The notes beneath the pieces were generated by a model. That model was not told the DNA's origin. It did not search any database and saw only the letters and a list, made by a program, of their open reading frames with translations. The translations under genes and the position numbers were made by a program. A stretch of DNA of 42,068 nt, taken from positions 1 through 42,068 of the forward strand of contig JAJYEA010000015.1 of the NCBI GenBank assembly GCA_021790425.1, in the 5' to 3' direction. Position 1 is the first letter of the stretch. Every line of letters begins with the position of its first letter. The stretch comes from Thermoplasmata archaeon. Its GTDB lineage: Archaea > Thermoplasmatota > Thermoplasmata > Lutacidiplasmatales > UBA184. Shown one piece after another: positions 33,806-39,087 of the stretch.

Positions 33806-34600
33806 TCATCCACCGCCCAAGGGGGCGAAGTAGACATCGGCCATCTCTCGAAGGAGCTTCGACTCGACCTGCGCAAGGAGCTTCGATGTGGTGGGCTTGG
33901 TGACGCCGAGCACCAGTGCGAGATCACCGAGGCCGATGCGCTTCGGGATATCCCAGTAGCCGGCATGGAGGGCAAGCTGGAAGGCCTCGCGTTGACGCGG
34001 GGAGAGCGTTTTCGTCGAACGTTGGGTAAGGCCGTGCCGGATCGATGCGATCTTCGTTTTGGGGTTGAGGTCCTGTATCCCGCAGATCAAGCGGTGGAAG
34101 CGGTTGGTCTCCGCGACGAGCAGAATGCTGACGGTCCCTCCCTGCACATGACAGGGGAGCTCCGGGAGGATTCCCGCGGCTTGAAAGACGCTGGCCAGGC
34201 AGGATACCGAGAGCGTGCAACGCACACGTAGGAACCCCGCCCCCTTGCCGGGCATGAAGCGCTCTACGTCGATCACATCCGGGGAGTCCACAACGGCAGG
34301 GACCAGAGACTCTAGGGAATCCGGCCCGATGGTATCGATGTCCAGCAGCAGGGTGTCCGCGGTGAACATGAAGTTCCGGACCAGCAGGTGATTCCGGGGA
34401 TGGAGTTTCGAGGCACGTTCTAGGAAAGAGGACCCCTCTCTTAGCGGGATTTCCAACCGGCACAGGAGGAAGTCCGGGGTACCCCGGGAGCCCTGCGGGG
34501 TACCCTCGGGAAGGTCCCCCGGGTGATCGACCCGCGGGATACCAAGGACGGCGTCCCCTCCACTGGAACCCCGCTGAGCGACGGGTCGCCCGGGATTCAC
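33806..34600 (-). CDS. Bat-type HTH transcriptional regulator of the peptide cluster
   Basis: A 264-residue protein. The GTG start has an ideal GGAGGT site seven bases or fewer upstream and overlaps the methyltransferase stop codon as GTGA, which argues strongly for translational coupling. Residues about 45-110 (CRLEIPLREGSSFLERASKL, LLLDIDTIGPDSLESL) resemble the N-terminal region of bacterio-opsin-activator-type regulators. The last 65 residues are the HTH_10 domain: LSPRQREAFQLALHAGYWDI, then LGDLALVLGVTKPTTSKLLA as the helix-turn-helix. Such proteins are usually archaeal activators. As the last gene of the peptide operon it is likely to regulate that operon or sense its product. Confidence 0.82.
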   Translation of the reverse strand: MNPGRPVAQRGSSGGDAVLGIPRVDHPGDLPEGTPQGSRGTPDFLLCRLEIPLREGSSFLERASKLHPRNHLLVRNFMFTADTLLLDIDTIGPDSLESLVPAVVDSPDVIDVERFMPGKGAGFLRVRCTLSVSCLASVFQAAGILPELPCHVQGGTVSILLVAETNRFHRLICGIQDLNPKTKIASIRHGLTQRSTKTLSPRQREAFQLALHAGYWDIPKRIGLGDLALVLGVTKPTTSKLLAQVESKLLREMADVYFAPLGGG

Positions 34601-35562
34601 GTCGACCTCCGCAGAGGGACCGACGGAAGTCCTGGCAAGGCCGGACTGACGTGAGTGGAACCCAAGGAGCCGTGTCCGAAGGGAGAGGCACCGAATGGAC
34701 GCCGGGGTCGGCACACGCAGAGGACCTGGTGGGCTGGGTGGGCCCGCTCCACTGGGCCCTGCCACGGCTGGGTGGCATCGTAAAAGCCCAGCACCTCGAA
34801 CCCTCCGCGCTCGACCAACGCCCCCATCGAGCGAATGGTGAGCATTCGGGACCGCACGGTGCTGACGCTGTGGGCTTCGAGCTTCCCTGCACCGAAGTCT
34901 AGGGCATAGAGCTCGGCCTCTCGGGTAAGAATTGAGCTCACCGGGTCATACCGGATGTTCTGGAGGTAGAGCACCTCTCGTTGGGGACCGGGGTGATGTT
35001 TCTCCCAGTACTCGACGTGCGGGCGGAGCCCAATATTCTGCCAGAACTCGAAAATGAAGACCCCCTTCGGGACATGCCGACGGACCGACCCCAGCATGCT
35101 CTCGAAGTCATCGTCACGGAGGAGATGGTCGACGGCTCCGCGCCAGCTGTACGCCACATCATAGGTGCGTCCCATGTCGAACGACCGCATGTCGCCCACC
35201 TCGAATCGGGGCGGAATGCGGAACCTCCCCGCACGGTTGCGGGCCACCTGGATCATGTCGGGTTCGCAGTCGATCCCGGTGACGTCGTACCCGCGGCTCG
35301 CCAAGATCGTCGCTTGGACTCCCGACCCACATCCGAGGTCCAGGAACGACTGCGACCGGGGGGCACCGTGCCGGCGGAGGAGCAACTCGAGATTGTCCAT
35401 TTCCGCTTCGTGGTCCGCATGGTCGCCCGTGATGAGCTCCCAGTAATCGGCCATTCCGCGGTACCCGCTGGGGCTCGCCGCTTCCTCCGTGGCCCGGTCG
35501 CTGGACGAGGGGATTTCTCTAGGGGCGGTTTCTGGCATCGCGCTGACGTTCCGTTCTTCCAC
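34597..35562 (-). CDS. SAM-dependent class I methyltransferase of the peptide cluster
   Basis: A 321-residue methyltransferase from the GTG at VEERNVSAMPE, which lies six bases after a GGGGGGT stretch and 22 bases past the radical SAM stop; ATG nine codons later is an alternative. SAM-binding motif I is FLDLGCGSGVQATILASRGY (73-92), the acidic end of strand 2 is Asp98 (VTGIDCEPDM), and later strands include RFEVGDMRSFDM and GVFIFEFWQ. The N-terminal WELITGDHADHEAEMDNLEL is common in small-molecule or peptide methyltransferases. The C-terminal about 35 residues are Pro/Ser/Gly-rich and look unstructured. Substrate unknown; modification of the cluster peptide is the obvious hypothesis. Confidence 0.88.
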   Translation of the reverse strand: MEERNVSAMPETAPREIPSSSDRATEEAASPSGYRGMADYWELITGDHADHEAEMDNLELLLRRHGAPRSQSFLDLGCGSGVQATILASRGYDVTGIDCEPDMIQVARNRAGRFRIPPRFEVGDMRSFDMGRTYDVAYSWRGAVDHLLRDDDFESMLGSVRRHVPKGVFIFEFWQNIGLRPHVEYWEKHHPGPQREVLYLQNIRYDPVSSILTREAELYALDFGAGKLEAHSVSTVRSRMLTIRSMGALVERGGFEVLGFYDATQPWQGPVERAHPAHQVLCVCRPRRPFGASPFGHGSLGSTHVSPALPGLPSVPLRRST

Positions 35563-35584
35563 GGTCGACCCCCCTAGAAGCGAC

Positions 35585-36739
35585 CTATCGCATTCCGCGC
35601 TCGTGCCGCAACCGCGTCCTTCGCGCGCACTCGGTCGTCGGACCGAAGAGGCCAGGGGGTTTCCCCGCCAGGGCCATGCTGTTGCCCCGACAGAATCCCC
35701 GGCACTGGGCAAAGTATTCGCAGTTGGAACACCCGGCCGGTACGGATCCTGCCGTGGCGAGCGCCCAGTACTGGAAGAGGGGAGATTGGTCAAAGATGGC
35801 GCGCAGGGATCCCCCGTCTAGGAGGGAGGGGACCGCGAACCCCTTGTGGAGATAGTCCCCAGGGTACCGAATGGAATCGCAGGGGACGACCCCCCCATCG
35901 TGTTTGACGACCGCTTTGACGTACCCGCAGTAACACGAACTACCACACCCCCTCTCTTGCCCGAACGTCTCGAAAAATGCGGGGTGGGGGGTAGCACTTG
36001 ACCGGATCTCGAACTGGGTGGAGAGGAGCTCGCGTCGCAAACGGTAGAGGTGGCGGATGGCTTGCTCCTGTTCATCGTAGGTAAGCGAGGACCGGGCGTA
36101 CATCCCCGAGTCGGTTGCCTCCCCCAGGTCGCTCAGCACGATGGCCTTCCAGATGGAGACCCCCAACTGGCGGAAGTGAGACGCGATCGCTTCGATATCC
36201 TGTACGTTCGCCCGCGTAACCACCGTGCTGACACCCACCTTGAGCCCGGCATCCACCAGACGGCGCACCGTCGCCAGCAGCGCTTCCGTGTCCGCTCCGA
36301 TGCGGGTGATCACGTTCTGTTCATGGCGAAAGTGGTCGATGCTGATCGAGATGAAAGCCTCACGATCCGCCAGGGCGCGAACGATCCGATCGGTGAGAAG
36401 CGAGCCGTTCGTGGCGACCCCCAATTTGATCTCGGACGAAAGCCGCCCCACGATGGCGAGAAAGTCGGGCCTGAGGAGGACCTCCCCCCCGGTGAGTTGC
36501 ACGGTGGCGACCCGGGCGTCGTTTATCGTGTCGGCGATAGCCAGCATCTGCTCCGTGGGCAAGTCGTTCTCGAAACGGTTCACCTTGACGTAGCAGTAGG
36601 AGCATGAGTAGTTGCATCGGTTGGTCAGATGCCAGATGAGCTTCAGGATCTTGCGCTGGCGCAGCACCTTCTCGAAGATCCCCTCGGGGTCGCGAGGGAG
36701 CGCGGCGTCAGAAATGGTTCGGGAGGACAGTTCGAGCAT
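35585..36739 (-). CDS. Radical SAM/SPASM peptide-maturase-like enzyme
   Basis: A 384-residue protein. The radical SAM cluster motif is Cys42-x3-Cys46-x2-Cys49 (LTNRCNYSCSYCYVKVN), followed by the GGE motif (TGGEVLL, 83-89) and an NGS loop (ATNGSLL). The C-terminal SPASM domain has Cys265, Cys269, Cys271, Cys287 (in the C-x15-C pattern CGYVKAV then GGVVPC), then C-x2-C-x5-C-x3-C at 337-350 (CSNCEYFAQCRGFC) and Cys371, enough for two auxiliary iron-sulfur clusters. Such enzymes cross-link or epimerise ribosomal peptides, or build peptide-derived cofactors. The ATG is preceded by GGGAGGAC six bases upstream. A peptide gene ends 24 bases before it. No peptide-recognition (RRE/PqqD-like) domain is apparent in the short N-terminus. 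Confidence 0.92.
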   Translation of the reverse strand: MLELSSRTISDAALPRDPEGIFEKVLRQRKILKLIWHLTNRCNYSCSYCYVKVNRFENDLPTEQMLAIADTINDARVATVQLTGGEVLLRPDFLAIVGRLSSEIKLGVATNGSLLTDRIVRALADREAFISISIDHFRHEQNVITRIGADTEALLATVRRLVDAGLKVGVSTVVTRANVQDIEAIASHFRQLGVSIWKAIVLSDLGEATDSGMYARSSLTYDEQEQAIRHLYRLRRELLSTQFEIRSSATPHPAFFETFGQERGCGSSCYCGYVKAVVKHDGGVVPCDSIRYPGDYLHKGFAVPSLLDGGSLRAIFDQSPLFQYWALATAGSVPAGCSNCEYFAQCRGFCRGNSMALAGKPPGLFGPTTECARRTRLRHERGMR

Positions 36740-36763: not shown

Positions 36764-36898
36764 CTAGCCCCAACCCCTGTCGGGGCTGCTCGGCATGCCG
36801 AGATGTTCGAGTTCGTCCGGGGTGACCGCAGGGCTCGCCCGGAGTCGCGCCACGAAGGCATTCAACTCTTCCATCACGTCCGCCAGTGTGTCTTTCAC
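36764..36898 (-). CDS. Candidate precursor peptide, 44 residues
   Basis: A short gene read directly from sequence. The GTG start at 36896-36898 follows GGAGGTG by six bases, the best ribosome site in the region; a GTG three codons earlier would overlap that site. The stop TAG is at 36764-36766, 24 bases before the radical SAM gene. The N-terminal 34 residues are charged and helical (KDTLADVMEELNAFVARLRA, then VTPDELEHLG), as expected for a leader. The C-terminal MPSSPDRGWG is short, Pro/Ser/Gly-rich with one Arg and one Trp, as expected for a modified core. No Cys, so it is not a thioether-type substrate. Position, ribosome site and amino-acid pattern support it, but no homologue can be checked here. 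Confidence 0.72.
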   Translation of the reverse strand: MKDTLADVMEELNAFVARLRASPAVTPDELEHLGMPSSPDRGWG

Positions 36899-36950: not shown

Positions 36951-36985
36951 ATCCATTGGGTATCCGTCCCAATGTATTTATTAGG
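36951..36985. promoter_or_regulatory. Divergent promoter with inverted-repeat operator
   Basis: CATTGGG (36954-36960) and CCCAATG (36968-36974) form a perfect inverted repeat around a seven-base spacer; two of the next three base pairs outward also match. It abuts an AT-rich box TGTATTTATTAG (36974-36985), whose centre is 27 bases before the ATG at 37007, ideal for a leaderless transcript. Read the other way, the same AT-rich box would place the peptide operon's start near 36950, so a protein on the repeat would cover that start and the TATA edge of the other gene. The adjacent ribbon-helix-helix protein is the natural candidate to bind it. Confidence 0.65.
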
Positions 36986-37006
36986 GAGTCTGAGCGTAGC
37001 CATTTC

Positions 37007-37732
37007 ATGGTAGAGCTTCGAACCGTCATACCCGATGAGATCGACCGGTACCTGGACACGCTGGTGGGGACGGGGCCGTTCAACAACAAGGCGGAACTCG
37101 TCCGCGCGGCACTCGCCTCGTACACATCGATGGCCGGACCCATGGCGCAGGTCTTCGACAAGGAGAATATCTTCTCTCCCGACGGACGCATCTATCAAGC
37201 TGAGTACGCCCGGGAGTCCGCCCTGCGCGCCCTCCCGTCGGTCGGGGTGGTCTACCCCCGCGGGGTCGTGTTGGTGGCCCGCACCTCGTCAGTATTGCCC
37301 CGGGTGTGGTATCCACGTCTGCTGCAAGTGGGCGAACAGCTCGCCATCGGCATGACGGGTCTCGTGGCTGACGGCTACGTGACCGCCCACCGCATCAAGA
37401 AAACCAACCCACAGACGTTAGAGGACTTGGTCGACGAGCTGGCCGAATGGTACTGGGAGAACAACTCACGACGGGACCGGAGACCGCTCGGGGTGTTCTC
37501 CATGGTCGCGAGCACACTAAACGGCGATCCACACCTCCTCCTCTTCCAGCCAATTGGGGCGTGCACCGAGAGCGGAGCGGTGGCGGTCGGCAAGGACTAT
37601 GCCCGAATCCAGAGCATACTCGACCGGAGCCCCATTGCTAGGTCCGGGCCCCAGGCCGAGAAGATCGCCTTCGAAGCCCTCGGCAAGCTCGACAAGGGCC
37701 AGCGGAACGAGGTCCTGCATCTCCGGTGCTAA
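37007..37732 (+). CDS. Fusion of ribbon-helix-helix DNA-binding domain and proteasome alpha-like domain
   Basis: A 241-residue protein. Residues 2-41 are a textbook ribbon-helix-helix domain: strand ELRTVIP, helix DEIDRYLDTLV, the GPFNN turn and helix KAELVRAALASY. From residue 50 the sequence follows archaeal 20S proteasome alpha subunits end to end: FSPDGRIYQAEYARES (56-71) is the alpha-subunit signature, GVVLVARTS matches strand S2, GMTGLVADGYVTAHRIK (115-131) matches the GLVAD-R region, RRPLGVFSMVAS (158-169) matches the RPFGV strand, and AVAVGKDYARI (191-201) the GSG-type turn. No N-terminal catalytic Thr of a beta subunit. Counting back without gaps from GLVAD, the conserved ATPase-pocket Lys is Arg104. 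The ATG at 37007 is preferred over the TTG at 36956 because of the TATA spacing. Probably a transcription factor with a proteasome-fold sensor or oligomer domain. Confidence 0.88.
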   Translation: MVELRTVIPDEIDRYLDTLVGTGPFNNKAELVRAALASYTSMAGPMAQVFDKENIFSPDGRIYQAEYARESALRALPSVGVVYPRGVVLVARTSSVLPRVWYPRLLQVGEQLAIGMTGLVADGYVTAHRIKKTNPQTLEDLVDELAEWYWENNSRRDRRPLGVFSMVASTLNGDPHLLLFQPIGACTESGAVAVGKDYARIQSILDRSPIARSGPQAEKIAFEALGKLDKGQRNEVLHLRC

Positions 37733-39087
37733 CGCTCCGCCGGAATGGGACCGGGGAGGGCAGAGCGCAAGTGTCGTCGGAGCGAGCGCCCCCCAGCGCA
37801 TCTCCGCCCGGCGAGCCACCCCCAGCACGAAGCGTGTGGGACGCCGTCGCGCCACCGGGCAATCCCAGGGCGGTCGCAATCTCCGGGGTCTTCCTCACCA
37901 GCGGAACCGCTCTCTGGTGGTGGCTCTTCGCGATCCTGCTCCACGAGGGGGGTCTCAGCCTTCTTGAGATAGGGGTAGTCATCGCGGCGGGAACGGCAAC
38001 GTCACTCCTCTCTGCGATAGCGGGCGGATGGATAGCGGATATCGCGGGCCGCAAGCCCGTCATCCTGACGGCGACGCTCATGAACGCTGTCGGCACCTTC
38101 TTTCTCGCCGAAACCGTCGCGACCTCCGTCCTCTCCTTCGGCCTGGTGCTTGGGGTGTACGGTTTCGTCGCCTTCGGAGGAACCTTCGCCTCGGGCTCGC
38201 TGCGCGCGCTCCTCTTCGAATCTTCTACGGCGGACCGTCGGGGCGCCGCGATGTCTGCGCCCTATGTGCTACCCTCCCTAGTAGCCATTCCGATGCCATT
38301 CATCGGTTCGCTCCTGAGCCGGGCGATCGGCTGGCCGGTCGTATTCCTCGTATCCGGGGCCCTCTTGTGCGTCTCGTTCACCGTATACGCGCTTCTGCTG
38401 GAAGAGCCCAGGGGAACCCTGCAACGACCGGCCCCACGACGGGATCCCCGCCCCCGTCGATGGGCATGGTGGATGCTCGGTTCTCCCGTCGTGGCGCTCT
38501 TCGGCGTATACTCTTTCATCGGGTTCGGACAAGGAATCTGTGCCCCCTTCATGGGGCTCTACTTCACCCGATACCTCGGGGCGAGCGTCCCCTATTTCGG
38601 CCTGATCGCCTCCGTCGAGATGGCTCTTGTCGGTGGATTGGCATGGGTCTCCGGGAGGTTGGTCGACCGGATCGGAGCACTACCGACGATGAGCGCCAGC
38701 CTCGGTGGAGAAGCGGCCATCGTGATCGGCATGGTTTTCGTCCGGAACCTCCTCCTGGCCGGCGGGCTCTACGAGGCCTGGAGCGCGGTGGATTGGTTCG
38801 ACCTCACCGCGCCCTCGGTCTTCCTCGGAACGAACGTGACGACCGAACGGAGGGCCACCGTCATCGGTGCCTTCGGCACGGTGACCCGCCTTCCGACCCT
38901 GGTAGCGCCGGAGTTGGGGGGATACCTCTTCGGGATCTTCCCTCCACTGATCCTTGTCGCCTATGCGACGGTCGCTGCAACGTCCGCGGCGTTCCTGGTG
39001 TTCCTGCGCACCGTCTTCCCGAGTCCCCCGAGGACGCCCCTCGGACAGTCTACCCGTGGTCGAGACCCTGCCGCTGCTACGGAATGA
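37726..39087 (+). CDS. MFS transporter of the peptide cluster
   Basis: A 453-residue major-facilitator protein with about 12 transmembrane helices. Motif A is GGWIADIAGRKPVILTATLM between helices 2 and 3; a cytoplasmic linker (RGTLQRPAPRRDPRPRRWAW) separates the halves, and a motif A-like loop recurs in the second half (SGRLVDRIGALPTM). The N-terminal about 45 residues are polar and Pro-rich. A GTG start overlaps the upstream regulator's stop codon by seven bases; a GTG at 37771 after GGGGAGGGC is an alternative. The overlap makes co-expression with the RHH-proteasome fusion likely. Export of the mature peptide is inferred from context. Confidence 0.85.
   Translation: MLTLRRNGTGEGRAQVSSERAPPSASPPGEPPPARSVWDAVAPPGNPRAVAISGVFLTSGTALWWWLFAILLHEGGLSLLEIGVVIAAGTATSLLSAIAGGWIADIAGRKPVILTATLMNAVGTFFLAETVATSVLSFGLVLGVYGFVAFGGTFASGSLRALLFESSTADRRGAAMSAPYVLPSLVAIPMPFIGSLLSRAIGWPVVFLVSGALLCVSFTVYALLLEEPRGTLQRPAPRRDPRPRRWAWWMLGSPVVALFGVYSFIGFGQGICAPFMGLYFTRYLGASVPYFGLIASVEMALVGGLAWVSGRLVDRIGALPTMSASLGGEAAIVIGMVFVRNLLLAGGLYEAWSAVDWFDLTAPSVFLGTNVTTERRATVIGAFGTVTRLPTLVAPELGGYLFGIFPPLILVAYATVAATSAAFLVFLRTVFPSPPRTPLGQSTRGRDPAAATE

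Follow-up and report, generated by a model that had tools for sequence, protein, structure and literature searches.

A proteasome alpha fold with an N-terminal RHH domain

The window analysed here, a 42,068-nucleotide stretch of DNA from a Thermoplasmata archaeon, contains on its forward strand (37007..37732) a gene for a 241-residue protein, RHH-alpha, in which a ribbon-helix-helix (RHH) domain is joined to a proteasome alpha fold. The reading frame is open throughout, from ATG at 37007 to the TAA ending at 37732, and the initiating methionine M1 is kept in 38 of 39 homologs. The predicted DNA-binding domain spans about residues 1-49 (37007..37153, forward strand), assigned by structure match and alignment to NikR, and the alpha-like domain spans residues 50-241 (37154..37729, forward strand), assigned by Pfam, structure match and alignment. 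An MFS transporter gene (37726..39087, forward strand; PF07690 E=1.8e-24) overlaps the RHH-alpha stop codon and likely belongs to the same operon. Divergent from RHH-alpha on the reverse strand lie a candidate precursor peptide of 44 amino acids (36764..36898; VKDT...SSPDRGWG), with a GTG start after GGAGGTG and no NCBIfam match, and a SPASM peptide-maturase-type radical SAM protein (35585..36739; PF04055 E=7.7e-25) whose best NCBIfam matches are peptide maturases, below cut-offs. An ORF with a SAM-methyltransferase motif (34597-35793, reverse strand) adjoins the radical SAM gene, and a further reverse-strand ORF (33806-34765) has an HTH_10 protein as its relative at the corresponding position in genome G004. 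Canonical PsmA and PsmB genes are present separately in the window's genome, on other contigs.

The original prediction had described this layout, with an alpha fold from residue 50 on, and Pfam matches, an AlphaFold model and structure matches of the RHH domain bear it out. Two Pfam models match the alpha part above their curated cut-offs, PF00227 (Proteasome, E=1.2e-12, residues 78-208) and PF10584 (the alpha N-terminal signature, E=4e-7, residues 54-70), and both are matched in all 17 RHH-alpha members scanned. The NCBIfam archaeal alpha model gives E=3.5e-20, yet scores 72 bits against a cut-off of 219, and the TIGR03633 equivalog cut-off of 287 bits is not reached (66 bits). The AlphaFold model has a pLDDT of 87, and a search of the PDB with it returned proteasome alpha subunits as the best matches (E ~1e-16, TM 0.65-0.69).

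The RHH domain of the window protein is weak by sequence, its NCBIfam match being to a ParD family at E=0.019, below cut-offs; PF01402 is matched in one of the 17 scanned members (E=6.8e-5). By fold, in contrast, the domain is clear. Modelled alone, residues 1-49 give a pLDDT of 86 and superpose on E. coli NikR with 0.9 A over 41 residues. The 13 best Foldseek matches are all NikR or ParD-type RHH proteins, with E-values of 0.4-2.6 that are poor because the domain is tiny (49 residues). The model has helices at residues 10-22 and 28-47 and an extended N-terminal segment, the ribbon strand being unassigned in the monomer. Residues E3 and R5, which align to NikR ribbon positions R3 and T5, are invariant in 39/39 proteins.

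The replacement of the alpha gate tail by a DNA-binding domain, as had been proposed, is real, although it is smaller than that wording implies. The retained alpha motif starts at residue 50 with FDKENIFSPDGR, equivalent to Y8-D9-R10... of T. acidophilum, and therefore just the first ~7 gate-tail residues were replaced by the RHH. All 39 RHH-alpha proteins lack the free N-terminal gate tail and have the RHH in its place.

Distribution and single origin of RHH-alpha

A profile built from 17 members was searched against 400 genomes of the class Thermoplasmata, and recovered 39 full-length RHH-alpha copies in 10 families, so that the fusion architecture is found in 39/400 sampled genomes. The family is cleanly separated by score, with at least 229 bits for its members and at most 165 bits for everything else, the top of the remainder being a contig-truncated second copy. 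Genome G328 has two copies (L102, L115), the second of which ends at the contig edge. A phylum sample of 390 genomes yielded no RHH-alpha beyond the class, and none turned up in the viral contigs searched.

In a maximum-likelihood tree of the alpha part all 39 proteins form one clade on a 100/100 branch, apart from the canonical alphas and from a second, RHH-less alpha paralog. This phylogeny places the family beside canonical alpha with a single origin. Branching inside the clade mostly follows family lines, and inheritance therefore looks mostly vertical, with losses. Three copies of the window type come from genomes placed in another genus (G189, G335, G370), where they lie on short contigs; this reflects either transfer or mis-binning. 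The RHH-less paralog (EYALQAIQMGGTAV...; L051-L057, genera g4, g5 and g6) forms a clade of its own (100/100); the genera carrying it belong to the same family and mostly lack RHH-alpha.

Features kept and lost by the alpha domain

Residues of the 39 RHH-alpha proteins were compared with those of 18 canonical alphas. The H1-H2 region of a 20S alpha subunit faces the beta ring, and here none of 21 canonical-invariant residues is kept, compared with 14 of 25 in the gate/H0 region; about 9 residues between H1 and H2 are deleted in 39/39, and the C-terminal strand/helix (H5) is absent. In the gate cluster D9, P17 and Y26 are unchanged in 39/39 and position 8 is F or Y in every protein. At the K66 position 32 proteins have K, one (the window protein) has R, and six from family f13 have C or G. 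In working proteasomes the Y8/D9/P17/Y26 cluster keeps the gate in its open state by intra- and intersubunit contacts, and the lysine K66 binds the carboxylate at the C-terminus of HbYX tails (PMC8907193). Retention of gate and pocket together with loss of H1-H2 would, on the simplest reading, mean that selection acts on the alpha-alpha/pocket side and not on docking to beta. Because the beta-facing H1-H2 and the C-terminal elements are lost, RHH-alpha is probably not a working 20S core subunit. Compared with archaeal PsmA, of which a canonical copy coexists with it, RHH-alpha shares the fold, the alpha N-terminal signature, the gate cluster, mostly K66, and the RPxG motif, and differs in the RHH that stands for the gate tail, the shortened H1-H2 and the missing C-terminal strand/H5. 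We infer that RHH-alpha has departed from the 20S core, still engages in contacts of the alpha type and may bind C-terminal tails. Retention of the gate and HbYX-pocket residues would be compatible with peptide sensing, with a ring of DNA-binding heads and with contact to the proteasome or its ATPase.

An 11-bp operator-like array at RHH-alpha promoters

Reading of the 39 upstream regions revealed a row of T(A/C)C(A/G)(T/C) units, TMCRY, spaced exactly 11 bp apart upstream of RHH-alpha genes, as in TACGTcaaacaTACGTgattaaTACGTtaaacaTACGTtaaaaaTACGT of genome G085. Pairs of units at 11 bp number 50, with a mean of 0.2 and a maximum of 3 in 300 shuffles, and pairs at 22 bp number 20, against 0.2, statistics that overstate independence since homologous upstream regions share descent. 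As a control free of shuffling, 309 further upstream regions from these loci together contain a single 11-bp pair. Counting both orientations, at least three units in one register occur at 33/39 RHH-alpha promoters and at 1/309 controls; the other six RHH-alpha promoters have two units only, and in genus g1 the operator is less regular than elsewhere, with 2-4 units. The array is still there in families whose flanking sequences have drifted apart. Most often, units stand at -46, -35 and -24 relative to the ATG, immediately behind a TATA-like block, and next come inverted units located in the ribosome-binding site and at the start codon; many arrays finish with such inverted units (AYGKA) in the same register. 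The invariance of E3 and R5 in the RHH is matched by an operator that has hardly changed.

In the window, direct units TCCAT (36952..36956, forward strand) and, 11 bp on, TCCGT (36963..36967, forward strand) are followed in the same register by the inverted units ATGTA (36972..36976, reverse strand) and GCGTA (36994..36998, reverse strand). The third unit overlaps a TATA-box-like element read from the sequence, TATTTATTA (36975..36983, forward strand), whose distance to the ATG at 37007 would fit an archaeal promoter. Positions 36951-36985, earlier suspected as a DNA site, are thus part of an 11-bp-period array that recurs at nearly all 39 homologous genes. The inverted repeat ATCCATTGGG/CCCAATGTAT seen there exists, but only as a consequence of the 11-bp register; as the operator, a simple perfect inverted repeat was rejected, since most relatives have none.

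The pattern TMCRTN6TMCRTN4RYGKA has its sole match in the window's 2.5-Mb genome at 36952-36976. In the 39 carrier genomes there are 37 matches, most of which lie at RHH-alpha promoters (mirror control 13), and in 39 non-carrier genomes 6 (mirror control 16). A pattern of three direct units gave many GC-rich background matches in carriers and non-carriers alike, so only AT-rich or TAC-type arrays are informative. No array was found at psmA, psmB or the other PAC2 genes examined, and a regulon including these genes was rejected. Family f13 has a second conserved array, located between the gene for a PKD-domain surface protein and gyrB in five genomes, about 300-600 bp upstream of gyrB (L178:3187-3255, L183:3227-3273, L221, L223 and L231). 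Where the PKD-domain gene is visible the array follows it directly, gyrB alone being visible in G129, and an Rfam search of this upstream region returned no match.

Varied neighbours of a constant gene and operator

A similar peptide gene of ~44-50 amino acids, with a conserved C-terminal SP..W, stands at the same place in 6/6 related loci, and the MFS gene lies beside RHH-alpha in five of the six window-type loci, the sixth ending with its contig. The peptide (36764-36898), the radical SAM protein and the MFS exporter are candidates for a new RiPP-like peptide-modification cluster. MFS genes also flank RHH-alpha in G021, G020, G142, G362 and G393. In genera g3 and g7 of family f1 the neighbours are TyrRS and ribosomal protein genes (L7Ae/S28e), in f15 TldD genes, and elsewhere PAC2/PurA and others.

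In f13 a PAC2 gene follows RHH-alpha in all six copies with downstream sequence (L046:8974-9759 and the genes of G117, G129, G105, G077 and G069), and the PAC2 proteins have a variable tail ending in (V/A)MYG, an HbYX motif, in 6/6. Of the known PAC2 homologs PbaA and PbaB, PbaB binds alpha rings via its HbYX tail (PMC3605417). The same six members carry C or G in place of the pocket lysine, and f13 is best taken as a caution: the HbYX-tailed putative chaperone is adjacent, yet the pocket lysine has been lost. The best-scoring PAC2 protein per genome (L118-L143) ends in YIG, not a strict HbYX, in 26/26 seen.

Since the neighbours vary and the operator is constant, we would say that self-control is the predicted ancestral and shared function of RHH-alpha, to which each lineage added other genes.

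Discussion

Genome comparison establishes that the fusion arose once and spread, that the predicted DNA-facing residues are invariant and that an operator-like array is conserved along with them. The array and these residues support the earlier reading of the protein as a transcription regulator. We consider it probable that RHH-alpha regulates itself by sequence-specific DNA binding, most likely by repressing its own promoter, and that it arose from a duplicated alpha subunit in which an RHH took the place of the gate tail. Autoregulation is the best reading because the array sits where a repressor would act, although a different regulator could bind it. Since 11 bp is one helical turn, the 5-bp half-sites would all lie on one DNA face, and RHH dimers may occupy neighbouring turns cooperatively along that face. 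The alpha domains would tie these dimers together, with the retained inter-subunit gate/pocket cluster as the multimerisation module, and the alpha domain is probably also a ligand-binding module, with a C-terminal HbYX-like tail as the obvious candidate. Presumably repression would work by occlusion, the operator starting right after the TATA box and reaching into the ribosome-binding site and the start codon. The predicted targets in the window's genome are RHH-alpha itself, the MFS gene that overlaps it, and the divergent peptide and radical SAM genes. Repression rather than activation, ring formation and ligand binding are what the retained residues and the position of the array suggest.

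A bolder form of this proposal, which we regard as possible though doubtful, is a ring-forming transcription factor, in which a heptameric (or other multimeric) ring or arc presents RHH heads to the multi-turn operator and an HbYX-type tail, from PAN, Cdc48, PAC2 or a peptide, switches DNA binding from the alpha pocket. If so, the status of proteasome activators or of peptides would be coupled to transcription. It is likewise conceivable, but rather unlikely, that RHH-alpha is mainly a local regulator specific to the gene cluster around it and senses the product of the peptide, radical SAM and MFS genes, with the peptide or its C-terminus (GWG, MWG, GWV...) bound as ligand in the alpha pocket. 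The short peptide, the SPASM radical SAM protein and, contig permitting, the MFS protein do flank RHH-alpha in six related loci, with the operator inside their shared divergent promoter region, and the five further MFS-flanked copies are in its favor. However, the other nine families have no peptide/radical SAM cluster beside RHH-alpha while their pocket residues are equally conserved, and so peptide sensing cannot be the ancestral role.

That RHH-alpha is instead a true proteasome component, joining PsmA in mixed alpha rings and anchoring the 20S, together with PAN or Cdc48, on DNA so that proteins bound there are degraded locally, appears improbable. The strong constraint on gate cluster, HbYX-pocket residues and alpha signature would be expected of such a component, as would the f13 operon that links RHH-alpha to a homolog of PAC2 assembly chaperones with an HbYX end ((V/A)MYG, 6/6). 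Against this stand the loss of ~9 H1-H2 residues and of the C-terminal strand/helix in 39/39, with 0/21 H1-H2 invariants kept, which argues against simple membership of the 20S core, the change of K66 to C or G in precisely the six f13 members with the PAC2 operon, and the lack of an operator at psmA, psmB and the other PAC2 genes examined. An antitoxin, or DNA-binding half of a toxin-antitoxin-like pair in which the alpha fold is a passive scaffold, would account for the RHH's best sequence match to ParD/VapB-type antitoxins and for autoregulation, which is typical of antitoxins; since no conserved small toxin-like gene adjoins RHH-alpha in any family, we give this explanation very little weight. 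Least credible is an artefact, whether a frameshift (named at the outset as a way in which two unrelated genes might have been joined), a misassembly or a chance fusion. Many of the source genomes are metagenome-assembled, but the same fusion occurs in 39 genomes, one of them a single-contig genome of 1.49 Mb, the RHH/alpha junction is conserved and the RHH is the best conserved part. Frameshift and misassembly were rejected on the strength of these 39 conserved copies. The other outcome named beforehand as refuting the prediction, the lack of a PF00227 match, is contradicted by the match at residues 78-208.

The autoregulator reading finds its closest parallel in NikR, which likewise combines an N-terminal RHH with a C-terminal ligand-binding, oligomerising domain and is the closest solved structure to the RHH of RHH-alpha. 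The C-terminal domain of NikR is metal-binding and ACT-like, whereas that of RHH-alpha has the proteasome alpha fold, and the NikR operator is a palindrome in contrast to the 11-bp array. By these comparisons RHH-alpha would work like NikR without being a NikR, and is an alpha homolog that lacks some of the alpha-subunit features tested. A regulatory link between RHH proteins and the proteasome has been described for CdrS, a stand-alone archaeal RHH regulator of Haloferax that binds upstream of psmB, panA and cdc48d (PMC8406309). Like RHH-alpha, CdrS is an archaeal RHH regulator; it is small and has no proteasome domain, and no RHH-alpha operator was found at the proteasome genes examined. CdrS is thus a precedent for RHH control of proteasome genes, not for the RHH-alpha architecture. 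Proteasome-fold proteins diverted from the 20S core were surveyed by Fuchs, Alva and Lupas in 2021, who listed Anbu, BPH, connectase and 22 further proteasome-like groups (PMC8665760). The text of that survey has no DNA-binding, helix-helix or Thermoplasmata group; its candidates were picked by active-site residues, which alpha-derived proteins lack. A search of the open-access literature turned up no RHH-proteasome fusion, in agreement with the original prediction, whose author knew of no described family with such a layout, although an unindexed description is possible. We would call RHH-alpha a predicted RHH one-component regulator with an unprecedented second domain.

In sum, RHH-alpha looks like a component of the cell's protein shredder that has become a DNA switch: a core proteasome part put to use as a predicted gene regulator, conserved across an archaeal class and previously undescribed in the literature searched. 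With one protein, a short operator and probably a host in culture, RHH-alpha offers a testable system for the alpha-ring interface and the HbYX pocket outside proteolysis, and for the question of a physical link between archaeal transcription and the proteasome.
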